Assembly (NCBI GenBank): GCA_944332265.1
Contig: CALVJQ010000009.1
Coordinates: 1 to 57,617 of the forward strand
DNA length: 57,617 bases
Direction: 5' to 3'
DNA from: an uncultured Bacilli bacterium
GTDB lineage: Bacteria; Bacillota_I; Bacilli_A; RF39; UBA660
The translations under genes and the position numbers were made by a program. Positions 11,598-42,695 of this stretch are shown piece after piece. Under the pieces are notes generated by a model. The model saw only the letters and a list, made by a program, of their open reading frames with translations. It did no database searches and was not told the DNA's origin. Numbering within the stretch: the stretch's first letter is position 1; the number at the start of each line of letters is the position of its first letter.

Positions 11598-11610
11598 CTT
11601 TAACACCACC

Positions 11611-12255
11611 TTAATTTATTAAATCTGAATCATGAATTTCTTCCTCTTCATATATATCCCCTTCTACAGCCTGTAAATATTCACTTTCTGTTGAAGAAGT
11701 TTCAAATATATTAAATTCAAATTCTTTAAATTGTGAAGTTTCTTCATCTAATAACGTTTTTAAAACGCTATCATTAAAAGAAATCGAAGACAAAACACTA
11801 AGTGAATTAGCCACTGTAACATTTATATCACGATACTCCACTATTACTTCTATTTTAGCATAATTATACATAATTTCAATAAAATACTTACCATTATCTA
11901 TTTCATTTATTTCCAAATAACCGTACTTATCTTCAAAGCTTATAGCTTTAGAATAAAATGATACATCATTTTCCTCATATGTCTCAATTATTTTATTATA
12001 ATAACTAACAGCATCAACATACAAATAATATGTATAATCACTACTAGCAATGACTTCATTATATTCCGTACTGTCTAAAACGCCTAACCCTTTAGGTAAA
12101 TTATACTTATATCCTTTACGATATTTATTATATACAGATACTTGGCGATTAGTTCCATTATCTATAATGTCATCTAATGACATTTCTTGTAAAGGTGTAC
12201 ACCCTGTCAAAACAACGCACATAAAAAAGGCAAGTAGTACAATTTTCTTTTTCAT
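11611..12255 (-). CDS. Lipoprotein of unknown function
   Basis: This 214-residue protein begins with a lipoprotein signal peptide whose lipobox is LTGC (Cys about 19), so it should be lipidated and tethered outside the membrane. The mature part is mixed alpha/beta with an acidic C-terminus (YEEEEIHDSDLIN). No family is recognised. It is the first gene of the operon that continues to the ytxH-like gene. AGGAGGTACT precedes the ATG and a TATAAT box lies about 35 nt upstream. Confidence 0.8.
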   Translation of the reverse strand: MKKKIVLLAFFMCVVLTGCTPLQEMSLDDIIDNGTNRQVSVYNKYRKGYKYNLPKGLGVLDSTEYNEVIASSDYTYYLYVDAVSYYNKIIETYEENDVSFYSKAISFEDKYGYLEINEIDNGKYFIEIMYNYAKIEVIVEYRDINVTVANSLSVLSSISFNDSVLKTLLDEETSQFKEFEFNIFETSSTESEYLQAVEGDIYEEEEIHDSDLIN

Positions 12256-12311
12256 AGTACCTCCTACTTCTTTCTATGATATTATAACATCTCTAATATT
12301 AAATTTAAATA

Positions 12312-12944
12312 TTATTTTTTCCTAGCATACAAATAATTTATTTTAATACCTTGATTTCTAAATTTTACTTCATATTCAGTTAAAGAAGTATCTTTACCCG
12401 AATTAGCCAAATCTAAAGAAATATCTTCAATAATATAACCATAACTAGTTAAATTGATAATCGAACTTTCAAATAAACCTTCATTATCTGTTTTTTGAAT
12501 AATTACTTTATCTTTCTTAAAGACCTTATCATAAATTTGCAAAAAAAGTGGTGAAGTAAGTCTCCTTTTAGCATGACGTTTTTTAGGCCATGGATCACTA
12601 AAATTAAGGTAGATAACATCAATCTCTTTATCAAAAATATCAGCTAATTCCTTAGCATCAATACATAATATTCTAATATTAAAAAGTTTTTCAGCTTCTA
12701 ATTTTTCCAAAGCACGACACACAATACTTGGATATTTTTCTACCCCAACAAAATTAATATTAGGATTCTTTTTAGCCATATCAATAAGAAAATTACCTTT
12801 TCCCATCCCTATTTCTAAATGAATAGGATTACTATTTTGAAAAATTTCACTACTAAATTTACTTTTATAAGCATATGGATCATGAATAATATAAGAACTA
12901 TTATCCACAATCATTTTAGCATTTTTCACATTTCTAAGTCTCAT
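12312..12944 (-). CDS. trmB: tRNA (guanine-N7-)-methyltransferase
   Basis: The 210-residue protein is a class I SAM-dependent methyltransferase that makes m7G46 in tRNA. Diagnostic motifs are HLEIGMGKGNF (SAM loop), FVGVEKYPSI, and SDPWPKKRHAKRRL near the catalytic site. Length matches TrmB. ATG 12944 is preferred over TTG 12953 because of its spacing from AAAGG. It stands alone between the lipoprotein operon and the small coiled-coil gene. Confidence 0.95.
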   Translation of the reverse strand: MRLRNVKNAKMIVDNSSYIIHDPYAYKSKFSSEIFQNSNPIHLEIGMGKGNFLIDMAKKNPNINFVGVEKYPSIVCRALEKLEAEKLFNIRILCIDAKELADIFDKEIDVIYLNFSDPWPKKRHAKRRLTSPLFLQIYDKVFKKDKVIIQKTDNEGLFESSIINLTSYGYIIEDISLDLANSGKDTSLTEYEVKFRNQGIKINYLYARKK

Positions 12945-22194: not shown

Positions 22195-23286
22195 CTAGTC
22201 AATACCAAATTCTAGACTTAATTTCATATCAGAACCAGTAGCATTGTTTTCAGCATCAACATCTTGACCTTCTACCCAGAAATAAACTCTTAACTTAGTA
22301 ACACCATTTTTTAAAGTAATCTTAGTAGATTGTCTTACAGCTCCCTCAGCAGGAGAAGTAATATCAGGAGTTACAGAAGCAAAGTAACCATTATGAGATG
22401 TTGAATTAGTTTCTGTTAAAGGAACTGGTTCAGAGAATGCAGTTTTAACGCCTTCATAGTTTAATAAACTATTTCCATTACCAGCAACTATACTTTCAAT
22501 ACCATAGAAGTTTTTAGCAGCAGTAACAGCAGCTTGTGTATGTGCATCAAAATTTGGTTCCCATAAAACTACTTGTTCACCATTTTGTAAAGCTTGAACA
22601 TCTTGAATAGCAGATTCAGAAGTTCTATAAGTATCAGAATCCATATTACCTTGTACAATAAAGGCAACACGAGTAGTATTCTTAATACCTAAATCATTTA
22701 AACTAGTATTACTAACACCAGCATTTTCAGTTAAATATAATACTGTATCATCTCTATCAACTTTTAAGAAGATATCAAATGCTACTAAACGTTGTCCATC
22801 ACAGTTAGGAACAGATGATGAATTAGCATTACCAGTTCCATCACTATCATAGCATCTCTTTTCAGTAGCTTCAGTAGTTGTTAAAGTATAAGTAGGATCG
22901 TCACAATCCGTTCCACCACCTGGACAATTAGTTGCAACAGAGCCATCAAATACTTTTAATAATTTAGCATCTGTTAACTCTTTTACAGATGACATTGCTC
23001 CTAAAGAATCAGGTAGCTGATTCTTTTGAGTAGTATACTCAGGAGTTTCAATTAAATCATCTTTACTAACTTTAACTCCCCAGTTAACACCATCAGCTGA
23101 AATTTCAAGGCCATTAACTGCTCTTACATCAACATTAATATCTCCAACATTAACTCTCTTATTTGAAGTAAACCAAGCATAAGATGAGAATGCCGTAAGA
23201 CTTAAAGTAAGCACTAGCAACAAAATCAATAATAATAGTCTTTTTTTCTTGTTTTCACTTTTATTTTTTCCATTTGTTTTAGTCAT
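22195..23286 (-). CDS. SipW-type exported protein (TasA/camelysin-like), paralogue B
   Basis: The 363-residue protein starts with a Lys-rich segment and a signal helix ending FSSYAWFTSNK, the usual SipW-type processing region. The exported part has ADGVNWG, QLPDSLG, LVAFDIFLKV, TRVAFIVQG, VLWEPNFDAHT and FWVEGQDVDAEN, all matched in paralogue A. Two to four cysteines (TNCPGGGTDCD, KRCYD, PNCDG) may form disulfides. GAGGAGT precedes the ATG. It is co-transcribed with the 23303 gene 16 nt upstream. A structural role in a surface fibre or matrix is inferred from the family. Confidence 0.82.
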   Translation of the reverse strand: MTKTNGKNKSENKKKRLLLLILLLVLTLSLTAFSSYAWFTSNKRVNVGDINVDVRAVNGLEISADGVNWGVKVSKDDLIETPEYTTQKNQLPDSLGAMSSVKELTDAKLLKVFDGSVATNCPGGGTDCDDPTYTLTTTEATEKRCYDSDGTGNANSSSVPNCDGQRLVAFDIFLKVDRDDTVLYLTENAGVSNTSLNDLGIKNTTRVAFIVQGNMDSDTYRTSESAIQDVQALQNGEQVVLWEPNFDAHTQAAVTAAKNFYGIESIVAGNGNSLLNYEGVKTAFSEPVPLTETNSTSHNGYFASVTPDITSPAEGAVRQSTKITLKNGVTKLRVYFWVEGQDVDAENNATGSDMKLSLEFGID

Positions 23287-23302: not shown

Positions 23303-24016
23303 CTAATTTTTTCTTTCTTCGACATGTTCTTCATTTATATCCATATGCATTTTCATCTCTCCACCTAAAATTGCATTAACACATTCAGGATCATCACCCT
23401 CAAGCCAAATGACAATCGTAATCTTATCAATATCTTTAGGATTCATTCCTTCTCTTTTTTCTAAGATTATCGTCTCATCATCATCTCTAAAAGGAGTTGT
23501 ATCTGGTTCTGGCTCACCAGTTATTGCACTCTTTTTAGCATATACGACTTGATCATCATTTACGAAAATCATTATTCTAACAGCATCATCAACATTCTTA
23601 ATAATGTCATCAATTGTAATAGAATACCAATAGTTTATCGTTTCCTCTCCTTGGTTTTCAAGATAAAACGTATAAGCTATATAATTTTCGCCATTATGAG
23701 CTCCTTCAGCTTCATTATTGATGTTATCAGGTAACCACTTAATAGATATGTTATCCATAAATGCAATTTTTGACGTAGAGAGTCTATATACAGAGCTTCT
23801 ATCGTTCAATGACTCATACATAACTAAATTTGATTCTAAATACGTATTCTTATCCATACTTATGGTAAAACTACCTTCATTATAGACAATATTTAGAATG
23901 AAATAAGCTATTACCAAGAATAACAACAAGGCCAATAATGAAATAAGAACTATCTTCTCAGTCTTCTTGCGCTTCTTAACTTTCTGCGCCGTTAAAACGA
24001 CTTCTCCTTTAGCCAT
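23303..24016 (-). CDS. Membrane-anchored exported protein sharing the WLEGxD motif
   Basis: The 237-residue protein has a basic cytoplasmic start, one helix (about 25-46) and an extracellular domain. The C-terminal motif IVIWLEGDDPECVNAILGG is related to the WxEGQDVD motif of paralogues A and B. The membrane helix ends in FILNIVYNEGSF without an AxA or AWF site, so it may remain anchored and act as a base or anchor for the other two. AAAAGGAGAG precedes the ATG. It is the first gene of the two-gene unit 24016 to 22195. Confidence 0.75.
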   Translation of the reverse strand: MAKGEVVLTAQKVKKRKKTEKIVLISLLALLLFLVIAYFILNIVYNEGSFTISMDKNTYLESNLVMYESLNDRSSVYRLSTSKIAFMDNISIKWLPDNINNEAEGAHNGENYIAYTFYLENQGEETINYWYSITIDDIIKNVDDAVRIMIFVNDDQVVYAKKSAITGEPEPDTTPFRDDDETIILEKREGMNPKDIDKITIVIWLEGDDPECVNAILGGEMKMHMDINEEHVEERKN

Positions 24017-24218: not shown

Positions 24219-24806
24219 ATGAAAACAAAGAAAAAACTACTATTAATCATGGCCTTTATTTCATTATTTATATGTCTCTACCAAGTTGCCTCAACATATG
24301 CCAAATACTTTACACAAACAACTAGTTCAATTGGTTCAAACATAAAAAAATGGAATATTAAAGTAAATGGTGAATCAATAAAAAACGGCTATAAACTAAC
24401 TAATCCAATAACTGCATATTTTGAACCAAGTGAACACATAGCTGACAATCAAATAGCTCCTACACGTGAAGGTTACTTTATTATAACCCTTGACTATAGT
24501 AACGTTGATTTATCCTTTAAATATGAAATAAATATTGAAGATAATGATATAGTAAATGATATAAGTATATTTAAATTAGAAGTTGATGGAACTGAAATAA
24601 CCACAACAAATAATACTATTTCTAATAATGTAAATATAAATGATCCAAATGATACTACTAAAACCAAAGAAATAAAAGTATATATTAAATGGAACGATGA
24701 TGAAAATACTGGTGCTACAATGACAAATGAAGAAGATACAGAAATAGCAACAAATTATGAAACAATCGATTTCAACATCGGTATAAAATTAACTCAATTA
24801 ACATAA
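24219..24806 (+). CDS. SipW-type exported protein with YAKY motif
   Basis: The 195-residue protein has a signal helix followed by STYAKYFTQTTSS, then a domain beginning WNIKVNGE. This layout recurs in the 32070 protein (SSYAFSKYNSEVT, then WNITVNDC), and both share the IAP.xxGxFxI segment. It is the only plus-strand member of the surface cluster. GATAGGAGGTATT precedes the ATG and TATAAT is at 24188-24193. Likely an exported matrix or fibre component; function inferred from the family only. Confidence 0.75.
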   Translation: MKTKKKLLLIMAFISLFICLYQVASTYAKYFTQTTSSIGSNIKKWNIKVNGESIKNGYKLTNPITAYFEPSEHIADNQIAPTREGYFIITLDYSNVDLSFKYEINIEDNDIVNDISIFKLEVDGTEITTTNNTISNNVNINDPNDTTKTKEIKVYIKWNDDENTGATMTNEEDTEIATNYETIDFNIGIKLTQLT

Positions 24807-24834
24807 AAAAAATTCCTATTAAAGGAATTTTTTT
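24806..24834. terminator. Bidirectional terminator ending the ten-gene operon
   Basis: AAATTCCT pairs with AGGAATTT around ATTAA (loop 24818-24822), with long A and T flanks. It closes both the plus-strand YAKY gene and the minus-strand operon that starts at 33255. Confidence 0.8.
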
Positions 24835-25528
24835 ATGGATTAGATTGAACAATATCAATCGTTAATTCTATTACCAATGAAGACTCTTGTGCATTATCAG
24901 GATTACTTGAAAATTCATATGATTTCTCTCCCAATTCTGTATCTTCACGATCACATTTATTATAAGTTCCTGTATCATCAGTAACCATACACTCTGCTTC
25001 ATCATTTTCATAATCCCACACTAATTCAAAGCTTAGTTGTGATACTCCATTAGAAGCAATTTGCTTATCTGCAATCTCAAAATGTAAATCAAAAGGATAT
25101 CCCTCAATCGTAAATACTCGACCATCATCTGAAACAGTTACTTGATAATCATCTTCTGATTGAACTTCTCCAAATAACGTAATCGATTTTATATTAATAC
25201 TTAAATCTGCACTAACTTCACCATTATTAACAATATTTATTTTATCAGTACTACTATCCATTCCAGGATATAAATCAGATATTTTAAATTCATGTGTTCC
25301 TTCTTCGCCATCTCCAATAACAACATCCCAAGACTTAACATGACCATGAATACTCATATCAACTGTCTTATTATAAATAAACCAAGCAAAAGAAGTACTA
25401 GCAAACCCAAAGAAAAGAAGCAATAACAAGACTATTTTATGTTTTTTTAAAACGACAAATAATATATTTCGCTTTTTAGCATCATGTACATTTTCATTAT
25501 TTGCAATATTCTGTATATCATGCTTCAT
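24833..25528 (-). CDS. SipW-type exported protein (AWF signal)
   Basis: The 231-residue protein has a 30-residue basic start and a signal helix ending FGFASTSFAWFIYNK. The following domain (VKSWDVVIGDGEEG, then a DLYPG.DSSTDKI..NNGEVSADL segment) has the immunoglobulin-like strand pattern of camelysin/TasA-type proteins. It is the last gene of the ten-gene operon, 18 nt after the signal peptidase gene that probably processes it. Substrate status is inferred from signal type and context. Confidence 0.8.
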   Translation of the reverse strand: MKHDIQNIANNENVHDAKKRNILFVVLKKHKIVLLLLLFFGFASTSFAWFIYNKTVDMSIHGHVKSWDVVIGDGEEGTHEFKISDLYPGMDSSTDKINIVNNGEVSADLSINIKSITLFGEVQSEDDYQVTVSDDGRVFTIEGYPFDLHFEIADKQIASNGVSQLSFELVWDYENDEAECMVTDDTGTYNKCDREDTELGEKSYEFSSNPDNAQESSLVIELTIDIVQSNP

Positions 25529-25546
25529 AAAAAAACACTCCTTATC

Positions 25547-26242
25547 TTATTTCTTTTCTTCTAGAGGCAATATATCTTCACTATTCTCTTTTATTATATC
25601 ATCTTTTTCTAAATCTGTATCTATTTTATCTTTATCACGAACTATCTTCTTAACAGATTCATCATTTTCTTCTATTATTTTTAAATCAGCATCTTCATCT
25701 TCATCATCTTTTTTATATATTAATTTAATTATTTCAATTGCTATTAATATAGCAATTGGAATAGCTATAAAACAAAATAATAATAGTTTACTAGTTGTTA
25801 TTCTTCCTATAAAACTTAGTAAAAAGAAACGATAAATAACTTTTCCTAAAACTTGTTCTTCTGAAACAATAGGATCTTCTATATTATTTGCAATCCCTTT
25901 CGTATGAAAATAATATTTCCCATCTTCGCCCATTTCAACTTCTTGTACTTGATGCGTTATAATCATACCATCTATTCCAACATCATCACCTATATAAGTA
26001 ACAGCATCACCTTTTTTTATATTTGAAGCATCCATTTCTTTTATAAGTAAAGTATCTCCAATATTGTAAGTTGGAATCATACTTCCAGAAGCTACAATAT
26101 AAACACGATATCCAAATAAATTATGTTGATTAGAAAATCTCTGAAAACCTGATAAAATAACTAAAAATAATAACAATAAAATGATAATCCATTCAACAAA
26201 AGCAACAATTTTACTACCAATACCATTAAATATAGCTTTCAT
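25547..26242 (-). CDS. SipW-type signal peptidase I with acidic cytoplasmic tail
   Basis: This 231-residue serine protease of family S26 (SipW/ER type) has an N-terminal helix (about 13-32), the catalytic serine in ASGSMIP (S54), and the general-base histidine in IITHQV (H97) instead of the Lys of ordinary bacterial enzymes. A second helix (about 150-172) is followed by a strongly acidic tail of about 55 residues. SipW enzymes release TasA-type proteins. The tail is unusual and may bind a cytoplasmic partner such as the AAA+ module. It lies 7 nt after the DUF2357-like gene. Confidence 0.88.
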   Translation of the reverse strand: MKAIFNGIGSKIVAFVEWIIILLLLFLVILSGFQRFSNQHNLFGYRVYIVASGSMIPTYNIGDTLLIKEMDASNIKKGDAVTYIGDDVGIDGMIITHQVQEVEMGEDGKYYFHTKGIANNIEDPIVSEEQVLGKVIYRFFLLSFIGRITTSKLLLFCFIAIPIAILIAIEIIKLIYKKDDEDEDADLKIIEENDESVKKIVRDKDKIDTDLEKDDIIKENSEDILPLEEKK

Positions 26243-26249
26243 AATAGCC

Positions 26250-27359
26250 TCAATTTAATTTTACATTGTTAATTTTATTAAAATACTTATCAATATGTTT
26301 ACGATATATTTTACCAATACCATCCATTGTTGCTGTATTACGATATTTAACAAGTGTAAATTGTTCTCCAACCATATCTTTTAACTCTTCTTCTGTTAAA
26401 CTTGCATTTAAATCTATAATTTTTTGAATAACTTGTTTCATAACTTTTTCTTTAACATTTTTAGTTGAATATTCATCTTTATTAAGTGTACATAAAGCTA
26501 AATAATTAAGTAAGAAAGTATCATCAAAGAAACCTCTTAAAGCTCCTTCCTCTTCATAATTTTTATCTTTCTTATCTCTTCTGTTATCATCACCAAAATG
26601 TTCTTGCAAATAATTCCATAATATCAACGCATATTGAAAATTAGTATTTTTTAAAATAACATTAGTTTTCTTAATTGGTGGTCTAACTAAAGCAACATGC
26701 GCTCTATGTAAAGCTTTAAACACTTCACTATTTTTTAAATCTATAATCTGTTGCTCTATACGATCTATTCGAGCAGCTAAACTCTCCCCATTTTTTCTAC
26801 CATCATCTTTTTTAGTATGTAGACTTGTTTTAATACTCAAATCAATCGAAATATGTTCTTGTCCCACTACTGATGCTGCTTTATATTGAACTGACTTATC
26901 ATCCTTTAAATAAGAACCATCAACCAATTTTCTCTTTTTAGCAGCAACAAAAGCTTCCATATTAATTATTAATGTATAAATAAATCTATTTTCATAAGTA
27001 TCAAAAGTTTCTTCTTTATTAATATTTAATATTTTAGAAGGTTTAATCTCATCATCTTCATTAACTTCTTGTATCAAATTTGTATGTTTAGCTAAATGTT
27101 TTATACTATCAACAGTAACTCTTTTAGCCATTTCTATTTTTACTATTTCATCTTCATTTATAATAAAGCGATTGGGATTACGTAAAATATTATCTAGATA
27201 TCTCATCGTATCTTCAATAATATCAACCCATTCAAAATTAGCTTCCACTTTATCATAATGCAAATCAACAACCATATCAGATTTACTTTTTTTCGTAAAA
27301 GAACTTACACGTTGTTCATCAGCATTTTCAAATAAAGAAGTTACATTTAATTCATCCAT
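26250..27359 (-). CDS. DUF2357-like protein paired with the McrB-like ATPase
   Basis: The 369-residue soluble protein shows the DUF2357-type signature TYENRFIYTLIINM (about 137-150) followed by a long helical segment (IDRIEQQIIDLKNSEVFKALHRAHVALVRPP) and LKNTNFQYALILWNYL. DUF2357/McrC-like proteins accompany McrB-type AAA+ ATPases. No PD-(D/E)xK nuclease motif is visible in the C-terminal part, so this is probably not a restriction nuclease. It follows the ATPase gene by 28 nt and precedes the signal peptidase gene by 7 nt. Family assignment is moderate, function unknown. Confidence 0.65.
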   Translation of the reverse strand: MDELNVTSLFENADEQRVSSFTKKSKSDMVVDLHYDKVEANFEWVDIIEDTMRYLDNILRNPNRFIINEDEIVKIEMAKRVTVDSIKHLAKHTNLIQEVNEDDEIKPSKILNINKEETFDTYENRFIYTLIINMEAFVAAKKRKLVDGSYLKDDKSVQYKAASVVGQEHISIDLSIKTSLHTKKDDGRKNGESLAARIDRIEQQIIDLKNSEVFKALHRAHVALVRPPIKKTNVILKNTNFQYALILWNYLQEHFGDDNRRDKKDKNYEEEGALRGFFDDTFLLNYLALCTLNKDEYSTKNVKEKVMKQVIQKIIDLNASLTEEELKDMVGEQFTLVKYRNTATMDGIGKIYRKHIDKYFNKINNVKLN

Positions 27360-27387
27360 AATCCCAACCTCTTTTCGATTTTATCTA

Positions 27388-28917
27388 TTATGTTAATTTC
27401 TTAAGTCTTAATAAATATTCAGTACATTCTTTCATTTTTCCTTTACCAAAAGTAGTATCAAGGAATTTAATAAATCCATCTATTTCATCACGGATATAAG
27501 AAACATTTAATTGTTCAAATTTACGTAAAATTTTCTTTGCAATAAAGTAATCAACACCATCTATTTCTGTACCACCACAAGCTACATAAACAGGAACAAA
27601 TTTTTTCATATGAGCAACAATACGGTTACCAAAAGCAATACGGAAATGTTGTATTACATAATCATCCATCTTTTCAATCTTATCTAATGTCTCATCACTG
27701 ATTTGATTATCATTAATTGCTGATTCATATAATTTTTCTAGATAAGAATAATTTACATCCATAGCTTGTGTAGGAACAGGTTCAAAAGGAGTTCCTTTAT
27801 CATTAATATCAATTGGCATAGCACGGTCATAAACTTTATCAGTAACCATAAATGTTGAGTCATCGTTATTGATTGTACCAATATACCAAACATTAGGAGC
27901 AATTTTTAATTTACCATCTTTTAAACGCTTAGGATCTGAACTCCAAGCACTTGGTGTCAATTCAACTATCCATTCATCTTGACTTGGCATTTCTAGAATA
28001 GATAACATCTCAGCAAAATAATATTCAACACGTGAAATATTCATTTCATCTAAAATAATTGTATAAATATCATCAGTATAACCTGCCATATATATTTCGG
28101 CTAATAAATCAGTCTCAGTAAATTTTTTGGTAAATTCATTAAAATAACCAAATAATTCTGTTCTATCACGCCAAGATGGTTGAACAGATGCAACACATGA
28201 ATCGTGTTTCATAAATTTTCCCCAAGCATAAGCAAGTGAAGTTTTACCTGTACCAGAAATACCTTGTAAAATAACTAATTTAGTACTTGATAAAGCAGCA
28301 ATAAATAATCTAATTAAATCCAAATGATAATATAACTTTAACTCAGAAGCACAGAAGTTTCTAAAATTGTCACAAAGTTCAGGCAATGTAAATGAATTGT
28401 TATAATTGACAATTTTGTAATCTTTAAACATTTCATCAATATGTACAAGTTTTGGAAATCTAGTGTCAAGTGCGTGTCCATCATCAACTTCTTCTGGAGT
28501 ATCACCTTCACTAACAGTTGCTTCTTCATCAGGATTAAGTCCTAATTGTGATACCTTCATAGCATACAACTCATCTTTTTCCTTCATCAAAGTTCTAACT
28601 TGTTTATGTAAATCAGCTAATTCTTCAAGTAAAGACTCTTGTTCAACCAAAGTCTTTCTAAATCTTATATACTTTCTTACTAAAAAGTATATACAAAAAA
28701 TAAATAACGCTAATAATAACATTGTACAAATAATTGCAACAACTACTAAGAACCATTCTCCACCAGAGAAATCTGTACTATAGTGTTTAATCAAATTAGC
28801 ATAAGCACGTACATCAAACATCTGTAAAATTCCTAAAAAGAAATCTTTTACAGCTTCAACAACTCCTCCAAATAATTGATCTAAGAATTCATATAAAAAT
28901 CTAACATATGTATCCAT
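27388..28917 (-). CDS. Membrane-anchored McrB-like AAA+ ATPase
   Basis: The 509-residue protein has an amphipathic start, a membrane helix (about 55-80), a coiled coil (about 86-118), and an AAA+ domain. Walker A is GISGTGKT (219-226), Walker B is IILDEMN (D290, E291), and the sensor-1 segment IGTINNDDSTFMVTDKVYDRA lies at about 343, with GxxN and DRA as in McrB/AAA_5 proteins. DNA-targeting domains of true McrB are absent, and a membrane anchor replaces them. Its start overlaps the stop of the 335-residue gene by 1 nt. It lies in one operon with signal peptidases and exported proteins, so it may power assembly or remodelling at the membrane (inference). Confidence 0.85.
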   Translation of the reverse strand: MDTYVRFLYEFLDQLFGGVVEAVKDFFLGILQMFDVRAYANLIKHYSTDFSGGEWFLVVVAIICTMLLLALFIFCIYFLVRKYIRFRKTLVEQESLLEELADLHKQVRTLMKEKDELYAMKVSQLGLNPDEEATVSEGDTPEEVDDGHALDTRFPKLVHIDEMFKDYKIVNYNNSFTLPELCDNFRNFCASELKLYYHLDLIRLFIAALSSTKLVILQGISGTGKTSLAYAWGKFMKHDSCVASVQPSWRDRTELFGYFNEFTKKFTETDLLAEIYMAGYTDDIYTIILDEMNISRVEYYFAEMLSILEMPSQDEWIVELTPSAWSSDPKRLKDGKLKIAPNVWYIGTINNDDSTFMVTDKVYDRAMPIDINDKGTPFEPVPTQAMDVNYSYLEKLYESAINDNQISDETLDKIEKMDDYVIQHFRIAFGNRIVAHMKKFVPVYVACGGTEIDGVDYFIAKKILRKFEQLNVSYIRDEIDGFIKFLDTTFGKGKMKECTEYLLRLKKLT

Positions 28918-29924
28918 TACTTCACCTCGTCTACACTTACTATTCTATCCTTTATTTTAACACTTTTTTTCATATCTTTGTAATAATATTTATTAAAATC
29001 AAAGAAAATCTTTTCAAATAATTCTAAATATTGAATATTATCGCTACTATAATCAAAACTATCATCTAGTATAATCGCAAAAAAATAGCCTTTTCTCATA
29101 TATTCTCTAACATAAGTTCCATATCTAAGGAAACATTTATAACTAATAACAATCCTTATTCTATCCTGAATAAATAAATTATCTATAATGTTTAATACTC
29201 TATTAATTTTAGTCTTCTTATCAAATAATGATTCAGGAAACTCTACAAAATAAGTCTTATCAAAATTACATCCTACTAAATCTTTTACTACTACACTAGC
29301 TAACTGTAAATAAGTAATAGCTACCATATCTTCAGATATACTATCTTTTTCTGAAGCTTTCTTTATAGCAATATCACTATATAATTCAGGAAAAACAATT
29401 TTATTTTCTAACTTAACAAAAAATTCATTCTTACCAATTTTCTTATAATCCAAATAAAAAGTTGGACTCTCAAAATTATCTAAAAATTCTTTTCTTATTT
29501 TAATATCATCACGAATCATCATACTAAATTGATTAACAAAATCTTTATCTTCACCAAACAATTTCTCTTTCTCAGTAGCAATACTTTGAATAACATTTTT
29601 TTGTGCTTCTAGTAAATACAACTGATCTAAATGATAAAAATATTGTGCAAACTTAGCAATCTTATCTATTACATCAATTTTAGCTTTACCATATTCAACT
29701 TCTAACCTTTTAGCAGTATCTTGAATAACTTTACTAATTTTTCTCTGTAAAGAAACATTCTTACTTGCTTCATCAATATAATTACTATATCTTACATTAA
29801 GATAAGCATTTATAAATTCTTCAGCAATCTTTTTATCATATTTATAATCCTTAAAAAACAACTTTAAATAATTATGAAAACACTTTATTGTAAAAGAAAT
29901 ATATTCATCCATAACATTTATCAT
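28917..29924 (-). CDS. Unrecognised cytoplasmic protein next to the AAA+ ATPase
   Basis: The 335-residue product has no membrane helix. The first half is helical (IAEEFINAYLNVRYSNY, then VIQDTAKRLEVEYGKAKIDVIDKIAKF), and the second half looks alpha/beta (KTYFVEFPESLF, RIRIVISYKCFL, FFAIILDDSFDY). No family is recognised. It overlaps the ATPase gene by 1 nt, so the two are translationally coupled and likely physically linked. AGGAGGGG precedes the ATG. Confidence 0.7.
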   Translation of the reverse strand: MINVMDEYISFTIKCFHNYLKLFFKDYKYDKKIAEEFINAYLNVRYSNYIDEASKNVSLQRKISKVIQDTAKRLEVEYGKAKIDVIDKIAKFAQYFYHLDQLYLLEAQKNVIQSIATEKEKLFGEDKDFVNQFSMMIRDDIKIRKEFLDNFESPTFYLDYKKIGKNEFFVKLENKIVFPELYSDIAIKKASEKDSISEDMVAITYLQLASVVVKDLVGCNFDKTYFVEFPESLFDKKTKINRVLNIIDNLFIQDRIRIVISYKCFLRYGTYVREYMRKGYFFAIILDDSFDYSSDNIQYLELFEKIFFDFNKYYYKDMKKSVKIKDRIVSVDEVK

Positions 29925-29935
29925 ATTACCCCTCC

Positions 29936-30892
29936 TTACTCAATAATCCTTTTATCAAAACTAATGACAGGTTGATTAGTATCACCATTTACATAGCTAT
30001 AGTTATTACTAGGAATTTTCTTATAATAACGAACCATTATACTTGATTTAGGTTCAACTACAAAAGTAATTTTTTTAATATAATTATGTTTTGTAGCATC
30101 ATCATCTATTACTCCATCACCATCATCATCTTTATAGTCATATGTAAGTTCTGTTTCATACCTTGTATTTGGATCTTCTAATATATTTGTACTCATATCA
30201 ATAACAATTGAAGGATCATTTATAGTAAGAGTTATTTCAGCCCTTGAAGTATCCAAAGTATTAGACACAATAGCATCTAAATAAACATTTCCAGGGGTAT
30301 CTTCAATTTCATAATTTATACCATAGTTACCAATAATTAAATTAAATGTAGCAGATAATTCCTCTATATAAGGTGATTTTGATTTAGCTGTAACAACTAC
30401 TGAAACCTTATCTCCATCATGTAATGTTACCCCACTTTTAGGAGCTATAGTAATAATAAAATTATCTGCGTTATCTTCACTTTTTATTGTTCTTTCAACC
30501 GTTGTTACTCCAGGTGTATTAATATAACATTCTACATTATTATCAGTAGAACAAGATAAATCATAAATAATATCGGTATCTGTTCCTTTTAAACTATTAA
30601 GTAAACTACTCATACTAATACTTAAATTATAATTAGTAGTACCACCCCAAGGATTAATTTCATAATCCTTCCCATGAATAGTCAATTTATCACTAGTAAA
30701 ATAAAAATTTTTAGTTCTTAAATAATAAACTTCGATAATATCTTTTACATATCGCCCATAATTAATTGTTAAGAAAGAGCCAAGAAGAACAAATGCAACA
30801 ATTAAACAAGTCGTAATCCTTTTATGCTCTTTAAAAAATCTTAAAGATATTTTCTTATTTAATTTAATTTTATCTTCTTTTCTCCTTTTCAC
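29936..30892 (-). CDS. Membrane-anchored exported protein with a DxDGDG calcium-type loop
   Basis: The 318-residue protein has a long basic start, one helix (about 27-47) ending TINYGRYVKDIIEVYYLRTK, then an extracellular domain. The segment FYFTSDKL...YEINPWGGTTNYNLSISM is followed by strand-rich modules. A Ca2+-type acidic loop DYKDDDGDGVIDDDA lies at about 265-280. Three cysteines are present. The start is probably GTG 30892, 4 nt after AGGTGAT; the GTG at 30901 lies inside that site. It sits between the 221-residue exported protein and the ATPase group. Confidence 0.75.
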   Translation of the reverse strand: MKRRKEDKIKLNKKISLRFFKEHKRITTCLIVAFVLLGSFLTINYGRYVKDIIEVYYLRTKNFYFTSDKLTIHGKDYEINPWGGTTNYNLSISMSSLLNSLKGTDTDIIYDLSCSTDNNVECYINTPGVTTVERTIKSEDNADNFIITIAPKSGVTLHDGDKVSVVVTAKSKSPYIEELSATFNLIIGNYGINYEIEDTPGNVYLDAIVSNTLDTSRAEITLTINDPSIVIDMSTNILEDPNTRYETELTYDYKDDDGDGVIDDDATKHNYIKKITFVVEPKSSIMVRYYKKIPSNNYSYVNGDTNQPVISFDKRIIE

Positions 30893-30897
30893 TTTAA

Positions 30898-31563
30898 TCA
30901 CCTACATATATCGCCAATATTATCTTCATTTAAAACTTGTTTTGATAATAACTGAATCTTAATTGATTCAACTAAATCTTGATATTCACTACTTGAATAA
31001 TCTTTTGGAAAAGTAACTTTCAAAGTATACTCATCATACTTTTCTTTACCATATTTAAAACATTTATCAGGAACTGTAAATACCCTAAAATAAGTACCAT
31101 AACTATCTTTCATAATTTGATTATCTAACTGATTATCGTCTATCAAACTAACAGCATTCGCACTCGAAGCATTCTGATTATAATATAAATCATAATCTAA
31201 TCTAATGTTAGTTGTTGTTATAATTTTTAATGCATATGAAATATTAGTATCTGCAACATTACCTTCATTATCTGTATTATAAACTCTAAACTTATAATAT
31301 TTAGTTTCACCAGGACCGATATCACCTAAATTAATATCTAGAGTTTCTTGAGCATTAAATTCAGCATTTTCATTTTCAACATCATCTACTCCACTAAAAT
31401 TAAAAGCATACAAAGCAACATCCATCTCCGTTGTCGAAAAAGCTTCTGATACATATGTTGCACTAGAGGTTTTAAAGAAAACTGCCATAATAAAAATATC
31501 CAAGATTAAAAATATAGTTAAAAAATTCATCATTCTTCTATTCTTGAATCTTCTCAATTTCAT
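30898..31563 (-). CDS. Exported protein with SipW-like N-terminus
   Basis: The 221-residue protein has a basic start and a signal helix (FLTIFLILDIFIMAVFF) leading into KTSSATYVSEAFSTTEMDVALYAF. The domain then shows LGDIGPGETKYYKFRVYN, a segment typical of TasA/camelysin-like proteins in which an extracellular Ig-like fold begins. AAGGAGG precedes ATG 31563, inside the end of the signal peptidase gene (26-nt overlap), so the substrate and its peptidase are translationally coupled. Probably cleaved near ATY. Confidence 0.78.
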   Translation of the reverse strand: MKLRRFKNRRMMNFLTIFLILDIFIMAVFFKTSSATYVSEAFSTTEMDVALYAFNFSGVDDVENENAEFNAQETLDINLGDIGPGETKYYKFRVYNTDNEGNVADTNISYALKIITTTNIRLDYDLYYNQNASSANAVSLIDDNQLDNQIMKDSYGTYFRVFTVPDKCFKYGKEKYDEYTLKVTFPKDYSSSEYQDLVESIKIQLLSKQVLNEDNIGDICR

Positions 31564-32077
31564 TTTTCTTAACCTCCTTCTTACCTATAGACAAAGCTAT
31601 ATTAAATAAAAACACTGTTACAAAAAAGGATATAAATACTCGAGGCTCCGTAACAATATTCATATATTTACCATAATCTGCACCAATATATGTAACTTTA
31701 CCAATTACTTGATTCTTATTAACAGGTTCATCGATAGCATTATTATTATCTCCTTTAGTGTAAATAAGACCATCTTCTATTTTAACAACTCTATGAGTAA
31801 CAACACTATTATCAGTATAATATGAAACAATATCATCAACATCAATATTATCAGTAATCTTAACAAATACATAATCATCCACTTGAATTAATGGTTCCAT
31901 ACTACCTGTTTGAATTTCAAAAAAAGTATATCCAAAATAATTAGTATATTTATTTTTTAAAACATTAATTTGAATATAATTATAAAAAGCCAAAACCAAT
32001 AAAATTACAACTATCCCAATTAATAAATTTAATAAAATATTTCCTATTTTTTTTAATACTTTCATCATGTTATCCAT
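31538..32077 (-). CDS. SipW-type signal peptidase I
   Basis: The roughly 179-residue S26 protease has an N-terminal helix, the catalytic serine in QTGSMEP (S59), the histidine in VTHRVV (H95), and the box GDNNNAIDEP followed by VIGKVTYIG, all classical for SipW. A C-terminal helix (about 150-170) completes the topology. It removes signal peptides from TasA/camelysin-type proteins. ATG 32077 is preferred because it overlaps the stop of the preceding gene (ATGGATAA); ATGs 12 nt upstream and 9 or 12 nt downstream are alternatives. Its neighbours on both sides are probable substrates. Confidence 0.9.
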   Translation of the reverse strand: MDNMMKVLKKIGNILLNLLIGIVVILLVLAFYNYIQINVLKNKYTNYFGYTFFEIQTGSMEPLIQVDDYVFVKITDNIDVDDIVSYYTDNSVVTHRVVKIEDGLIYTKGDNNNAIDEPVNKNQVIGKVTYIGADYGKYMNIVTEPRVFISFFVTVFLFNIALSIGKKEVKKNEIEKIQE

Positions 32078-32720
32078 TATATTGTTCAAAAACTATCTGA
32101 ACTGGTACTTTTAATTTTGGTGTACCTCCATTCGTTCCCAACTCAGTATCAGTTAAATTAGTTTCTTCATCAACTTCTGCAACCCAATCTACATATATAG
32201 TAATCACATCTTCATAATTTAAATTATTAGGTGAATACTTAATTATACCTGCATATCCCTCTTCATCTAAAGGAATTTTATTATCCATATTAGGATCGCT
32301 TCTATATAGCTTTATTGAAACATTTTCTGTTGCTAACCAAGCTTTTATTGTATATTTAATGGAAACTTCTGTGTCATTTGGTCTAATTTTAATTTTAAAA
32401 CTCCCACTTGAACCAGGTGCTATCTTATTATTAACAACATTATCATTTCCGTTATTAGAATAAAAGATTTCACTAACCCCAAAATTCTTTATTAATGTAA
32501 CTTCACCAGTCTCATCATTAACACTCTCTTCAAAACAAGCAGTATTATTTTTATCAGGTTTTGTTATACTACAATCATTAACAGTAATATTCCAATTAGC
32601 AATATCAGCTTCCGCTTCACCAGTAACTTCTGAATTATATTTACTAAAAGCATATGAACTACCTAGTATTATAATTAGTAAGAAAGATAATCCAATTAAA
32701 TAATTTACCTTTCTCTTCAT
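32070..32720 (-). CDS. SipW-type exported protein (YAFSKY motif)
   Basis: The 216-residue protein has a signal helix (LIGLSFLLIIILGSSYAFSKY), then a domain starting NWNITVNDCSI. The core shows KIAPGSSGSFKIKIRPN, the IAPG/GS segment common to TasA/camelysin-like folds, and ends DWVAEVDEETNLTDTELGTNGG...VPVQIVFEQY. It is related to the plus-strand 24219 protein. It is 2 nt after the pseudo-peptidase gene and overlaps the active SipW gene. Two cysteines (DCSI, TACFEES) may pair. Confidence 0.82.
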   Translation of the reverse strand: MKRKVNYLIGLSFLLIIILGSSYAFSKYNSEVTGEAEADIANWNITVNDCSITKPDKNNTACFEESVNDETGEVTLIKNFGVSEIFYSNNGNDNVVNNKIAPGSSGSFKIKIRPNDTEVSIKYTIKAWLATENVSIKLYRSDPNMDNKIPLDEEGYAGIIKYSPNNLNYEDVITIYVDWVAEVDEETNLTDTELGTNGGTPKLKVPVQIVFEQYNG

Positions 32721-32721
32721 A

Positions 32722-33255
32722 TTAAACCTCTTTTTTTAATTCTACTATTTCTATTATAATGGCATAAATTTCAAAAATAATTGCAATCATTGTTGGTAAT
32801 ATAATTAAGGCTAAAAAACCCATTTGTGATTCTAATACTGCTAAAACATTACCTACACCTTTTAAATTAACAACATCTTTACCTACATAGTAATCATAAT
32901 AAATATTATAATCATTACCTACTACATAAGTATAATAACCATCCGTATCATGTACTTCTTTTACTTCAGCATAATTAATTACATATGACTCAGATGGATT
33001 ATAAAAGAAAACATAATCTCCTTCAGTTACCTCAGCACCTTTTTCTTTACCTTTACTTATTACTAAAAGATCTCCCTTTTTATAATCAGCTGATAAATCA
33101 TCATCAGCAATTACTAACGAAGTATCCCCAAACTCTGTAATTCCTTGATCATTTAAACATAACAAACAAGCAGTTACAAAGATTGCAACTCCAACATACA
33201 AAACTAAAAATACTGCAAATAAAATTTTCAAGATAGATTTTAGAATACTCTTCAT
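32722..33255 (-). CDS. Signal-peptidase-like protein lacking both catalytic residues
   Basis: The 177-residue protein aligns by eye without gaps to the 25547 enzyme across its active-site strand: FGDTSLVIADDDLSADYKKG against FGYRVYIVASGSMIPTYNIG. The catalytic Ser becomes Asp (D53), and the His position reads Tyr in VINYAEVKEV. The topology (N-terminal helix about 8-30, C-terminal helix about 140-165) and the GDLLVI strand are kept, so the fold seems intact. It may be a non-catalytic partner, chaperone or scaffold for SipW substrates. It is the first gene of the ten-gene operon. Confidence 0.78.
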   Translation of the reverse strand: MKSILKSILKILFAVFLVLYVGVAIFVTACLLCLNDQGITEFGDTSLVIADDDLSADYKKGDLLVISKGKEKGAEVTEGDYVFFYNPSESYVINYAEVKEVHDTDGYYTYVVGNDYNIYYDYYVGKDVVNLKGVGNVLAVLESQMGFLALIILPTMIAIIFEIYAIIIEIVELKKEV

Positions 33256-33272
33256 ATATTATCACCATACTA

Positions 33273-33301
33273 ATTTTATCATAATAACACAATACTTTCA
33301 A
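33273..33301 (-). promoter_or_regulatory. Promoter of the ten-gene surface operon
   Basis: TTGAAA (33296-33301) and TAAAAT (33273-33278) are spaced by 17 nt. The start codon at 33255 follows a short leader with TGGTGAT. The upstream terminator at 33304-33330 isolates this operon. Confidence 0.6.
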
Positions 33302-33331: not shown

Positions 33332-34906
33332 TTAAATATTTTTATACATTTCAATTAATTTTTTACTTTCAAATAAATCTAAAATAAAATCAATTGTAAC
33401 GTCATTTTCTTCCAAGCAATGATCAATAATAATTATTATTAAATCATTAAGCATTTCATCTACACCATCAATTGTCATATTTTCTTTTTTTAGATTAATA
33501 TCTAATAATTTATAATGATCCATTATAATTTCTGCAACATCATTATCAACACTAAATACAACATTTCTTAAAATCATAACATTTGGATCTAATAAAAATG
33601 CTTCAAAATCTTTTACAGTAGCTTTAACTTTATTAATATCAACATCTTCTTCATGAGCTTTAATACAAGATCTTAAATATCCTTTAAAGCCTAATACAAA
33701 GCGAAATACATCATATACAGAAGAAGTATCTGTTATATAACTATTCATCTTATCATATATTAAAGCTTTATCATATTCTTCATATTTAGCATCTAACTCT
33801 TTAACTTTTTCATTAACTAATAAATAATGTTTATCAATATCTATTTTCTTTTTAAAGAATAAGAAACCTTTTGTTGATCCTTCATTAATCTCAGCAGTTA
33901 AACGTGCTAATTCATTAACCAAATCATCAATTTCTTTCAATATTTTAGAAGCTTCACCAATATGTGTTTCTCTTTCTTTATACTTAGCTTTAACATCATC
34001 TAAAACATAAGAATATTTTAAATAATTTTTAAATTCTCTTAAATTAAAATATAAATTTTTAAAATCTTCAGCTTTCTCTTTACCTTTAGCTACATCACAA
34101 TTGTCGCCTAAGAATTTTGAATAACATTTACTAACATTAACAATACTATAATTATTTAATAACAAATCACCATTCATAAATTGATTCATTATAACATCAA
34201 TATCAAAATTCTCTAAATTAAATAATTCTTTAGCAAGATTATTTCTCTTTAATAAATAATCATCATAAGTTAAATTATCTTTTATAATTTCTTTTTGTTT
34301 ATCTTCAATATATTTTTCGAATGTTTTAATATGTTTATTAAATAATATTCTAAAACTTGTCTCAATATGTGATATAACATCAGGACACTTCCAATGCAAG
34401 TCTTCAAATATATCTTTCATTCTTTCCAAATCATCATTTTTCAAAAATTCTTTAATATACTTTCTTGCATAATTACTATAAACAAAATCATCTTCAGTTA
34501 ATGTAATTCCAACAGTTTCAAACTTACTTAAAGCTTCTTTTATATCACTATTAACTGATGCTAAATCATTCTTATAATAATGCGTTAAACTATAAAGTAA
34601 TGTATCAAATCCCATTTTTTCAAATGGTGAATTCATTGGATTAAAAAGAGCTAAATCTTTATAATCCAATAATTCCTTTTTAACTAATTCTAATCGACTA
34701 GAAGGTTTATATTCTAAATATTTTGCCGAACGTCGTTTCATCTCAGAGAATAGCTGATCTCTATAACCTTCATATTCTTTTTCTAACTCTGACACTTTAT
34801 TTTTATATAAAGCTAAGTTCTTAGCATTATTAATCGGCATACTAGAAAGAACTTCTTTAGCAACTTCAATATCATGATTAAAATCTTCTAATTTCTTTAC
34901 TCCCAT
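33332..34906 (-). CDS. Large helical cytoplasmic protein, unknown function
   Basis: The 524-residue protein is nearly all helix, with coiled-coil stretches (about 25-60 and 325-385) and no membrane segment or signal. A short hydrophobic hinge GFLFFKKKIDID lies between two helices near 355. No family is recognised. It follows the 46-residue gene by 1 nt (TAACATG), so it is translationally coupled to the giant repeat protein operon. A role as cytoplasmic scaffold or export partner is inference only. Confidence 0.72.
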   Translation of the reverse strand: MGVKKLEDFNHDIEVAKEVLSSMPINNAKNLALYKNKVSELEKEYEGYRDQLFSEMKRRSAKYLEYKPSSRLELVKKELLDYKDLALFNPMNSPFEKMGFDTLLYSLTHYYKNDLASVNSDIKEALSKFETVGITLTEDDFVYSNYARKYIKEFLKNDDLERMKDIFEDLHWKCPDVISHIETSFRILFNKHIKTFEKYIEDKQKEIIKDNLTYDDYLLKRNNLAKELFNLENFDIDVIMNQFMNGDLLLNNYSIVNVSKCYSKFLGDNCDVAKGKEKAEDFKNLYFNLREFKNYLKYSYVLDDVKAKYKERETHIGEASKILKEIDDLVNELARLTAEINEGSTKGFLFFKKKIDIDKHYLLVNEKVKELDAKYEEYDKALIYDKMNSYITDTSSVYDVFRFVLGFKGYLRSCIKAHEEDVDINKVKATVKDFEAFLLDPNVMILRNVVFSVDNDVAEIIMDHYKLLDINLKKENMTIDGVDEMLNDLIIIIIDHCLEENDVTIDFILDLFESKKLIEMYKNI

Positions 34907-34907
34907 G

Positions 34908-35048
34908 TTACTTCCTCTTTTCTACTTCAGTATTTTCTTCAATTTTTAAGAATTCAACAAATTCTTGAGCCGCTTTAAATAAATCAATTAATTCATTAAA
35001 ACTAAGATCTTCAACTTTTACTTCCATATTATCAACTACTCCCTTCAT
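34908..35048 (-). CDS. 46-residue acidic helical protein
   Basis: ATG 35048 overlaps the TGA of the giant gene (TGATG), and the frame ends at TAA 34908, 1 nt before the next ATG. The product is MKGVVDNMEVKVEDLSFNEL...DLFKAAQEFVEFLKIEENTEVEKRK, one amphipathic acidic helix. An internal ATG at 35027 preceded by AGGGAG would give 39 residues. It has the feel of a small adaptor or chaperone-like partner for its neighbours. Tight coupling on both sides supports it as a real gene. Confidence 0.7.
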   Translation of the reverse strand: MKGVVDNMEVKVEDLSFNELIDLFKAAQEFVEFLKIEENTEVEKRK

Positions 35049-38000
35049 CACTCATCAACATCTAAACTTCTAATAATTAAATACTCATACACTTCACCTA
35101 CTGGAACATCACCATCGTACATAGTAAATATAACTCTATACGTTCCTGATTTCCACTCTGAATTAACTTTATCATTAATTTCATCATCAGTAGGACCATT
35201 CTTCATTGTTAATGAAACATTATAAGTATCTCCTTCAAAACTATTACCAATATCAGTTAAATTATAAATTAAACATTTACCATCAGTATCTGTACTAAAA
35301 CAAGAATCTAACATATTAGTTGCACTATCATCAACATACATAGAAGATGCTACTCCTTTTAAATCAATATTTTCATATACAGCATCATATGTTGAATCAT
35401 AACTACGTCTTTGAAGTGAAACTTTTAAATTAGGATCAGCTAAACCATTTTTAGTCATTACTTTATAATTAATCTCTAAGCTACCATTCTTATCTAAACC
35501 AGTATTAACATCATGTGTTACCTGAATTGGATCTACATCAACATCCAAACCGTATTGATTATTTAATAACTCAAACGTGTACTCATTATAAGTAGGAGTA
35601 TAATCACCATAATATAAACCATCATATGTAGCAAATGTTTCAACAACTAATTTATATTTATCATGATTCAAACTAGAATTTGCAAAATCAATATTTAAAC
35701 TTGAAATTACATCTGTAATACGACCAGCCAACTCAATACGTGTTGTTCCATCAGTTTGAGGGAAATAATCAACGCCATTAATTGATATTACTGTACCAAA
35801 TAAATCTTGTGTTACCCTTTCATAAACAACTTCACCATTTTCAATAATTTCATTACCCTCAGAATCTAGTTTAGGTCTCATAACCGAAATTATTGCTCCT
35901 AATTTATAATCATCATACGTTGAATCAGATACATTATTCAAAATATTACCAGCACTATCCTTTTGAATCAATGTCGTATTTAAATTTAGATTAGTAGACT
36001 CTCCAACGTATAAAGTTGTTTCATTAGCATAACTTCCATCATCCATAACAAAACCACCAGTAGTTGTTATTTCAGAAGAAACATCAGGATAAATTGTATA
36101 TGTCATATCTTGCGTAGGAATACCTTGTGGTGTTAAAATTACTCGCTCTGAACCATTTTCCTTACGAGCTAAATTCATATATAAATGAGCCTGTGTAACT
36201 TCAGTAACCAAATCCCGTTCAGCTACCCCTGAAAAATCAACAGTAAAGACAAACTCCTCAATCGCTAATTCAGTTTCATCATCACCACTGCCTTCGACAT
36301 GGTAATATTTTGTACTATCTTCACCATTCATATCATCATCATACTTATTATTGGCATCCGTACTACCCATGCGAATAAAATCTTCCAACATGTATTTAGC
36401 TACACCTTCATCATTCTTAACCTGTAACATATCCTCATACGATTCTTGATTAACTACATAATAATATTGTTCTCCATCAGCTAAATCTAACATTGTTATC
36501 TTTGTTCCCACAGGGAAAACATAAGAAGAATTCAAATAACGATAAGATTCACTTACTTCAAGAGGTTGACCATTGTCATCTGTCGTTGTATAAGCTTTAT
36601 TGTAAACTTTATCAACACTCCATTTTTCACCTTTACTACTACTTAACATTTCTGAATTCAAATCCAATGATAAAGATTGATAAATACTAAATGAACTACT
36701 TGATGAAATAGACGTTGGTCTATTTTGGAATACTTCATACTTCTTACCAGGTGAAATAGCTTTACCATAAGTATCAGTATCTCCTTCGAACATTGAAACA
36801 TTAACTTTTATAACAACAGATACTGTTGAACCAGCATCAGTAGGATCACCATGTGGATTTGTAAATGTCGTATAAATATAAATTGTACCTAAAGGAATAA
36901 TAATATTTTCTTCATCTTGATTACGAGCTACCGTAAAATCAAGATTTTTAGAATAATATAGCCAAAAAGATAAACTTCTTTGTGTTATTGTTGAATCATA
37001 TAAATAAACACTATCACCGATACAATCACCAGTTGCATCAACAGTACAGAAATTATCTCCAAAGCCATCACTATTGCCATTATCATAGAAATTAGTCTTA
37101 TAATTATTCAACCATCCAGCAGAAGTAGTACCCATTGACAAAGCAAAATTTTGATTAGCATCTACTACTCCATTACCATCGACATCATCTAAGTTATAAG
37201 ATTTAATTTCACTCTTATCGATTAAAACTGTATCATAAGGATTTACTACATCATTACTACGTGCTTGGAAATCAGACGTATCAATATTCTCAATCTTCAT
37301 TGTTGCATCACGCCACTCTTGTGACTCGCCATCAACAATTTCTCTTAATTCTTCAAGTGTAATCGTTTTATTAACTGCACCATCTACAGAATAACGTGTT
37401 GCCTGTAAATCAACATTAATTTCCGTTAATTCTTTACCAATAACCCACTTATAATATAAAGCATTTGTTGGAGTAACACCGACATAATCAACATTAACCT
37501 TATTAGTTTCAACATCATAGTAATTAGTATAATACCCGTTAGTTCGTATTTGCTCATCAGGCTCATAATCATGCTTACCATAAACGAATGTATAAGCATC
37601 ACTACTTATTTGATTATAAATATCCACATCAACTACATCATCATCTTTATAAACAGAATTATATATACCAGTTTGAATAGAATCACCTTGAGACACATAC
37701 ATTCCTAAGAAAGTCATACCATGTACTGAACCAGCAGGTGTTGATGTTGCATCATATGAAGGCTCTTCAGAAGCCGAAATAGACAATACTTTATTTGCAT
37801 ACATATAAATACGGTTATCTGAATTAGCATTTACTAAAGTTCCATTATTCTCTGTTGTTGTTTGTGCAACAAAATTATCCGGATTAATTGAACCATTCAT
37901 TGTTCCACTATAAATACTATTCAACCAAGTAGAACCACTTACTAAGTATAATGAAGAACCATTTAATTGATTATTACTACTTTCAGTACCAAGTAAATAT

Positions 38001-42667: not shown

Positions 42668-42695
42668 ATACTTCACTTCCTAGACTATACTATTA

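Follow-up and report, generated by a model that had tools for sequence, protein, structure and literature searches.

A membrane-anchored McrBC-type gene pair associated with SipW signal peptidases and an EAL-fold protein in Bacilli

The domain DUF2357 is the N-terminal domain of McrC, by which the nucleoside triphosphatase (NTPase) McrB is activated (PMC11090510). McrB systems associated with signal peptidases were named CoCoPALM in 2024, in two sentences of an eLife paper that deferred the details; the signal peptidases were called likely pilus assembly factors, the N-terminus of the NTPase was described as FtsB-like, with a transmembrane (TM) segment and a coiled coil, and its signature as NxD, usually with D or E next (PMC11090510). 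The CoCoNuT relatives are predicted defence systems (PMC11090510), and a further McrB-family protein, PcdA of Staphylococcus aureus, was co-opted for division-site selection (PMC10602043). In the literature searched, the name CoCoPALM occurs in the eLife paper and its preprint only, other hits being unrelated. This article describes an operon of ten genes that, as judged from its sequence, matches the CoCoPALM class. It is found in a stretch of 57,617 nucleotides (nt; referred to as the window), which is one contig (CALVJQ010000009.1) of the 48-contig, 1.42-Mb genome of an uncultured Bacilli bacterium (GCA_944332265.1).

An earlier note on this DNA had taken the locus for a system not yet described, a claim that has to be dropped, as the combination of McrB, DUF2357 and signal peptidase was already named, in passing (PMC11090510). 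The NxD signature, the DUF2357 homologue of McrC and the association with signal peptidases are all present in the operon. It is proposed, with moderate confidence, to be a CoCoPALM system in which a membrane-anchored, nuclease-free NTPase of McrBC type works on the cell surface, gating or ordering SipW-processed subunits under an input from an EAL-fold protein.

The AAA+ protein retrieved E. coli McrB from the PDB with phmmer (E 8.5e-6), its family profile returned McrB entries only, and hhalign aligned it to E. coli McrB with a probability of 96.6%. The Walker A, Walker B and NNDD signatures are essentially invariant (up to 48 sequences) and a TM segment occurs near the N-terminus in 43/43 full-length copies, so that the membrane helix and AAA+ domain reported earlier are retained and the name is corrected to McrB-clade NTPase. 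The essentially invariant residues N350, D352 and D353 agree with the CoCoPALM pattern of NxD followed by D or E; NNDD is also compatible with NxxD, and D353 lies opposite the D of McrB when the two are aligned without gaps. The N-terminus consists of the TM segment and a linker, to which no DNA-reader family was matched in family scans, and a putative coiled coil was judged by eye. An anchor of this kind could also belong to a positional or septal factor, FtsB-like in its N-terminus and PcdA-like in its role, that places surface proteins instead of driving their assembly. The description of the CoCoPALM N-terminus as FtsB-like (PMC11090510) and the example of PcdA (PMC10602043) favor this possibility, which is nevertheless unlikely in view of the intact and invariant NTPase motifs, unlike those of PcdA, of a tight link to SipW and not to division genes, and of FtsL and FtsB profiles that gave weak matches only, in 2/25 members.

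The protein encoded next to the AAA+ gene was previously called DUF2357-like, an assignment that is borne out by its match to PF09823 (44 bits, cut-off 23) and by that of 36/36 homologues. A direct profile match to E. coli McrC was not obtained, and for that reason the link to McrC is drawn through PF09823 and the published domain analysis (PMC11090510). No nuclease family was found by Pfam in the 36 members, which at this level lack the PD-(D/E)xK domain of McrC, and none (HEPN or other) was found among the operon proteins scanned, where a CoCoNuT system would carry a nuclease. The system may still be antiviral, a relative of McrBC placed in the envelope that detects attacking phages and for which the surface proteins serve as bait, barrier or effectors; most of the McrB/McrC family is defensive, the CoCoNuT relatives are predicted defence systems, the AAA+ protein matches the PADLOC candidate PDC-M26A and the module is patchy within its genus. 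This is judged improbable, since the module has no nuclease or other recognisable effector, a search of plasmids and phages at 80% coverage gave no full-length AAA+, and SipW and the exported subunits are constant partners. The same search led to the rejection of a mobile defence island.

Both SipW peptidases predicted in the earlier note exceed the TIGR02228 cut-off of 52 bits and keep their catalytic residues: the one at 31538-32089 scores 67 bits (Ser in 45/46, His in 46/46, Asp in 46/46) and that at 25547-26242 scores 81 bits (Ser, His and Asp in 40/40). The first gene had been read as a pseudo-peptidase, and this stands; its serine position is mostly D, N or E and the histidine is lost, in relatives as well. 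An ordinary tapA-sipW-tasA locus was rejected as an explanation, the AAA+ and DUF2357 genes being constant parts. Further SipW-type domains occur in this genome away from the module, in open reading frames of ~520 and ~380 amino acids (aa) (contigs C34 and C15; L151, L152).

In most exported proteins of the module a TM segment precedes a SipW-type site that contains an aromatic residue. The best conserved of them, p237, lies outside the span of the earlier note and shows a mirror correlation with the AAA+ protein of r 0.92. Its structural model (predicted local distance difference test score, pLDDT, 84.9) is an anchored beta-sandwich, and its top VIA match is the TasA fibre 8aur (Z 7.6, short of the Z 8 taken as safe by the tool; root-mean-square deviation, rmsd, 3.3; 133 residues), with other fibre subunits also listed. 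The match is suggestive of a TasA-like protein; Foldseek gave weak, mixed beta-sandwich matches only, and no sequence model matched p237 in the family scan. The calcium loop for which the 321-residue protein had been named is kept in 1/37 homologues, and it was discarded both as a conserved feature and as a hint to function.

Extraction machines such as FtsH-like proteins often consist of a cytosolic AAA+ ring and a membrane anchor. An AAA+ protein of this common plan could act in quality control, as an unfoldase that extracts stalled SipW precursors from the membrane, and this possibility is considered quite improbable. No protease domain or partner is present in the module, and McrB-clade proteins are not known to us as unfoldases. 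The long cytosolic tails of the exported proteins, examined as candidate handles for the AAA+ protein, are no special feature, being the same as in AAA-less SipW loci (12 control proteins only).

A strong AAA+ match was found in 79/392 genomes of the wider group, and SipW is present in 77 of those 79 as against 98/313 genomes without such a match (Fisher p 1e-29, phylogeny not corrected). SipW is encoded at most three genes from AAA+ in 73/78 loci (39/40 of the window type, 34/38 of related types), and AAA+, DUF2357 and SipW occur together in most of the 78 loci, in many families of Bacilli. About 40 window-type relatives, the nearest of which is G002, share the near-constant order p345-AWF-p237-p195 (opposite strand)-AWF-SipW-DUF2357-AAA-p335-321-221-SipW-exported-pseudoSipW; in other families the SipW-AAA-DUF2357-SipW core persists and the surroundings differ. 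Pairwise distances of the AAA+ protein and its neighbours are correlated (r 0.63-0.92). The profile searches suggested in the earlier note found that the gene set stays together across genera, and its conservation rules out chance or artefact. The refuting condition given there has a one-sided outcome, AAA+ without SipW being almost never seen (2/79) and SipW without AAA+ being frequent (98/313). The latter, together with the fact that unrelated genes can share operons, would agree with an incidental neighbourhood in which SipW and the McrBC-like pair have separate functions. Such a coincidence is very improbable given an association that spans many families despite different gene orders, the fusion of SipW to p335 described below and the presence or absence of the genes as a unit.

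The ten-gene operon is the core of a larger module of 15 genes, at about 22195-42676, and in the loci of relatives that were compared the conserved unit reaches past the operon on both sides. In G003 and G005 the flanking genes are kept on both sides and the entire block, with the 363-aa exported gene at one end and the giant protein at the other, is missing; p237 is likewise missing from 5/5 tested same-genus genomes without AAA+, and full-length homologues of the 524-aa protein adjoin the module in many loci. The module is gained or lost as a unit of about 20 kb at one chromosomal site in the genus, the 524-aa and 2542-aa proteins included.

The 335-residue protein (p335) had been listed as unknown, a label that is superseded by a predicted EAL fold. 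The AlphaFold2 (AF2) model of p335 (pLDDT 90.5) is helical in its N-terminal half and EAL-like in its C-terminal half, and Foldseek returned EAL domains with a probability near 1.0 and modest E-values (~1e-3). Residues 153-335 were aligned by VIA-align with the EAL domain of LapD (3pjt) at Z 14.2 and rmsd 3.0 over 167 residues, EAL proteins occupying 50/50 rows of the VIA listing. No Pfam EAL match was found for p335, and the EAL catalytic and cyclic-di-GMP (c-di-GMP)-binding motifs are absent from its conserved columns. In three genomes of one genus SipW and p335 are joined in one protein of 801-811 residues, in which the SipW part is active-looking and the p335 domain scores 161-166 bits with a profile built without the fusion proteins. 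This fusion suggests that the EAL-fold protein and SipW act jointly. The linker between the two parts is acidic, and in it a repeat resembling EEELGKTALYRIVSVD recurs several times (L028:6803-9238, L029:6813-9218, L112:5935-8343), perhaps as a linear motif for binding or phosphorylation.

Full-length Pfam EAL or GGDEF-EAL genes are found in or beside the operon in other families, in 20/38 loci without p335 (at least four families) and in 0/40 loci with it, counts that are not independent because the loci were sorted by the presence of p335. These genes either occur as a pair upstream (about 460-490 and 770-870 aa) or follow immediately after the second SipW. Most simply, p335 can be read as a degraded substitute for the EAL proteins of other families. 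When profiles of p335 and of the neighbouring GGDEF-EAL proteins were compared, no significant match resulted, the single local hit aligning the DDFG region. The genome of the window has no Pfam EAL protein and one GGDEF protein, with the degenerate motif DGNEY; on these grounds c-di-GMP itself has probably been lost from this genome and an active c-di-GMP circuit is unlikely. The lone GGDEF protein (G000 contig C22, about 10500-12914; L150, L171) has apparently two solute-binding-like sensor parts and a TM segment; its assignment as GdpP was wrong.

In the tree of the AAA+ domain the window type is nested among EAL-associated types, and the SipW-linked types as a whole form one group, modestly supported (84/74). 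Their sister type (support 98/93) lacks SipW, is linked to surface proteins and has one DUF2357 flanked by two AAA+ genes, and plasmid-borne CoCoNuT-like operons fall outside both; the deepest part of the tree is unsafe because of long branches. In loci of the sister type (L139, L140, L141, L142) the two McrB-like AAA+ genes on either side of the DUF2357 gene differ from each other, and surface proteins of >1000 aa are present without SipW. Copies of the module without a DUF2357 of their own were seen at L119 and L154 (G182), L155 (G111), L159 (G095) and L153 (G228); in G182 the same contig holds, at a distance of ~15 kb, another module that does have DUF2357, so that a single DUF2357 may be shared by two AAA+ proteins. 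In L033, L135-L138 and L147 the AAA+ protein is 588-663 aa long with about five TM segments and adjoins a SipW of about 290-350 aa, and in 5/6 of these loci a 425-453-aa gene of unknown family takes the DUF2357 position.

In the mechanism proposed, the two active SipW peptidases would cut the exported, TasA-like subunits and, perhaps, the giant surface protein as well, and the dead SipW paralogue probably holds exported subunits. The McrB-like protein would be kept at the membrane by its N-terminal helix and coiled coil, probably in the form of a ring, and the hydrolysis carried out by this ring would be turned on by the DUF2357 protein, just as McrB is activated by McrC. Nucleoside triphosphate (NTP) would be spent to remodel or gate the SipW-precursor complex, and the subunits would in this way be processed and assembled in order. 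The EAL-fold protein, represented by p335 or by true EAL and GGDEF-EAL proteins in other families, would give SipW an on/off input; p335, having lost the catalytic residues in the lineage of the window, would act as a scaffold or as a non-nucleotide sensor.

The energised machine for surface fibres suggested in the earlier note is a reasonable reading, because the membrane NTPase is truly linked, far beyond what chance would give, to SipW-exported, TasA-like proteins; the formation of fibres is what we infer. What the evidence indicates is an NTP-driven and cyclic-di-GMP-derived system by which SipW-processed surface fibres are controlled or assembled; in these gut bacteria, relatives of Candidatus Coprovivens, it suggests the conversion of antiviral machinery to the building or control of such fibres. 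More tentatively, and with considerable doubt, the motor of a restriction enzyme (McrB with the activating half of McrC) could have become, in Bacilli, an engine in the membrane for assembling or gating surface fibres of TasA type. Its switch would be a c-di-GMP receptor acting directly on SipW, and in the gut lineage of the window this receptor would have turned into a nucleotide-free pseudo-EAL protein.

Several observations weigh against a CoCoPALM system that acts on SipW-processed subunits. McrB relatives are mostly defence proteins, and the patchy presence of the module within the genus is often seen in defence systems; in type D relatives the motor is accompanied by surface proteins without SipW, so that the gating of SipW is not the ancestral role of the whole clade. 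The loss of the c-di-GMP motifs from p335 weakens the signalling link in the genome of the window, and the TasA match of p237 is below the safe threshold.

CoCoPALM has so far been a name without a function, and it becomes a testable model with the conserved set of parts, the dead peptidase, an EAL-fold partner and the fusion of this partner to SipW. A descendant of McrBC would be tied to surface biology instead of DNA cutting, and systems of SipW/TasA type would gain an energy source and a second-messenger switch, which to our knowledge are not in the Bacillus subtilis SipW/TasA model.

Table 1. Coordinates and supporting evidence for the genes and signals of the module in the window.
Feature	Position	Strand	Evidence
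Exported AWF protein (363 aa), one end of the block	22195-23286	-	SipW-type signal YAWF; lost together with block
p237, anchored beta-sandwich, candidate TasA-like protein, best conserved of the exported proteins	23303-24016	-	Model, VIA, mirror r
Exported 195-aa protein, opposite strand within module	24219-24806	+	Orientation conserved
Bidirectional terminator hairpin separating two convergent genes	24807-24832	.	Minimum free energy (MFE) and z of folding
Exported AWF protein, last operon gene	24833-25528	-	SipW-type signal FAWF; position conserved
Second SipW-type signal peptidase, active-looking	25547-26242	-	TIGR02228; Ser/His/Asp kept
DUF2357 protein (McrC N-domain type), nuclease domain not detected	26250-27359	-	PF09823
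McrB-clade AAA+ NTPase, membrane-anchored	27388-28917	-	PDB match, hhalign, invariant motifs, TM
p335, helical domain and predicted, catalytically degenerate EAL fold (residues 153-335)	28917-29924	-	AF2 model, VIA
321-aa protein, exported or anchored	29936-30901	-	Signal scan, conserved position; calcium-like loop not conserved
Exported 221-aa protein	30898-31563	-	SipW-type signal; position conserved
SipW-type signal peptidase, active-looking	31538-32089	-	TIGR02228; Ser/His/Asp kept; p335 fusion in three relatives
Exported protein with SipW-type signal (YAFSKY)	32070-32720	-	TM then aromatic SipW-type site; orthologues in same place
Catalytically dead SipW paralogue (pseudo-peptidase), operon gene 1	32722-33255	-	35-sequence alignment
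Promoter-like site	33273-33301	-	10/12 consensus matches; weak evidence
524-aa protein without known family, block member	33332-34906	-	Homologues beside module; lost with block in G003, G005
Giant repetitive surface protein, 2542 aa, other end of the block	35048-42676	-	N-terminal TM; homologues in 13 module loci; lost with block

The operon was correctly described as tight: its ten open reading frames, all on the minus strand, are separated by gaps of 18, 7, 28, 11 and 1 nt or overlap by 1, 4, 26 and 20 nt, every gap being below 30 nt. The terminator placed at 24806-24834 was also found, as a strong, bidirectional AT-rich hairpin (MFE -12.1 kcal/mol, z -5.4) and that the consensus scanner had missed because its stem is poor in G+C. 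For the promoter the outcome was mixed, since the site at 33301-33273 belongs to a class that occurs at chance frequency (117 sites against 112 in shuffles) and is weak evidence on that account; the terminator-like hairpin of the preceding gene, at 33330-33308, lies directly upstream and supports an operon boundary there. As to the other genes of the block, the 195-aa gene keeps its opposite orientation in 36/37 related loci, and the giant protein contains many glycine-rich repeats of the GGTV..VYGGG type, no significant Pfam match being found in it and no LPxTG motif being seen at its end.

With the CoCoPALM class the locus shares a membrane-anchored McrB-clade NTPase with a putative coiled coil, a DUF2357 partner and linked signal peptidases, whereas the main text of the eLife paper gives no gene set, dead SipW, EAL-fold partner, SipW fusion or link to GGDEF and EAL proteins (PMC11090510). 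No report of these features was found in a search outside which lay most subscription journals and the supplements of that paper; to this extent the full gene set, with its putatively TasA-like exported proteins and conserved dead SipW, the predicted EAL fold of p335, its fusion to SipW and the true EAL and GGDEF-EAL genes of other families appear to be new. The McrBC type IV restriction system of E. coli K-12 likewise has an AAA+ core and a DUF2357 partner in one operon, but in the window a membrane helix replaces the DNA-reading domain, the nuclease domain is not detected and the partners are export proteins. The tapA-sipW-tasA operon of B. subtilis has in common a SipW peptidase and TasA-like exported proteins; it is without NTPase, DUF2357, EAL protein or giant protein, while the window encodes several subunits and two SipW peptidases in addition to a dead one. 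LapD and FimX are degenerate EAL receptors that control a surface adhesin and a pilus, and p335, whose best structural match is the EAL domain of LapD, would also be a degenerate EAL protein tied to surface structures; it differs from both in the loss of the nucleotide-binding motifs, in its helical N-terminal domain and in having relatives fused to SipW. PcdA, finally, is another McrB-family AAA+ protein that moved from restriction to a cell-surface or division role; its NTPase motifs, intact in the protein of the window, are degenerate, and it carries EVE domains and lacks a DUF2357 partner.

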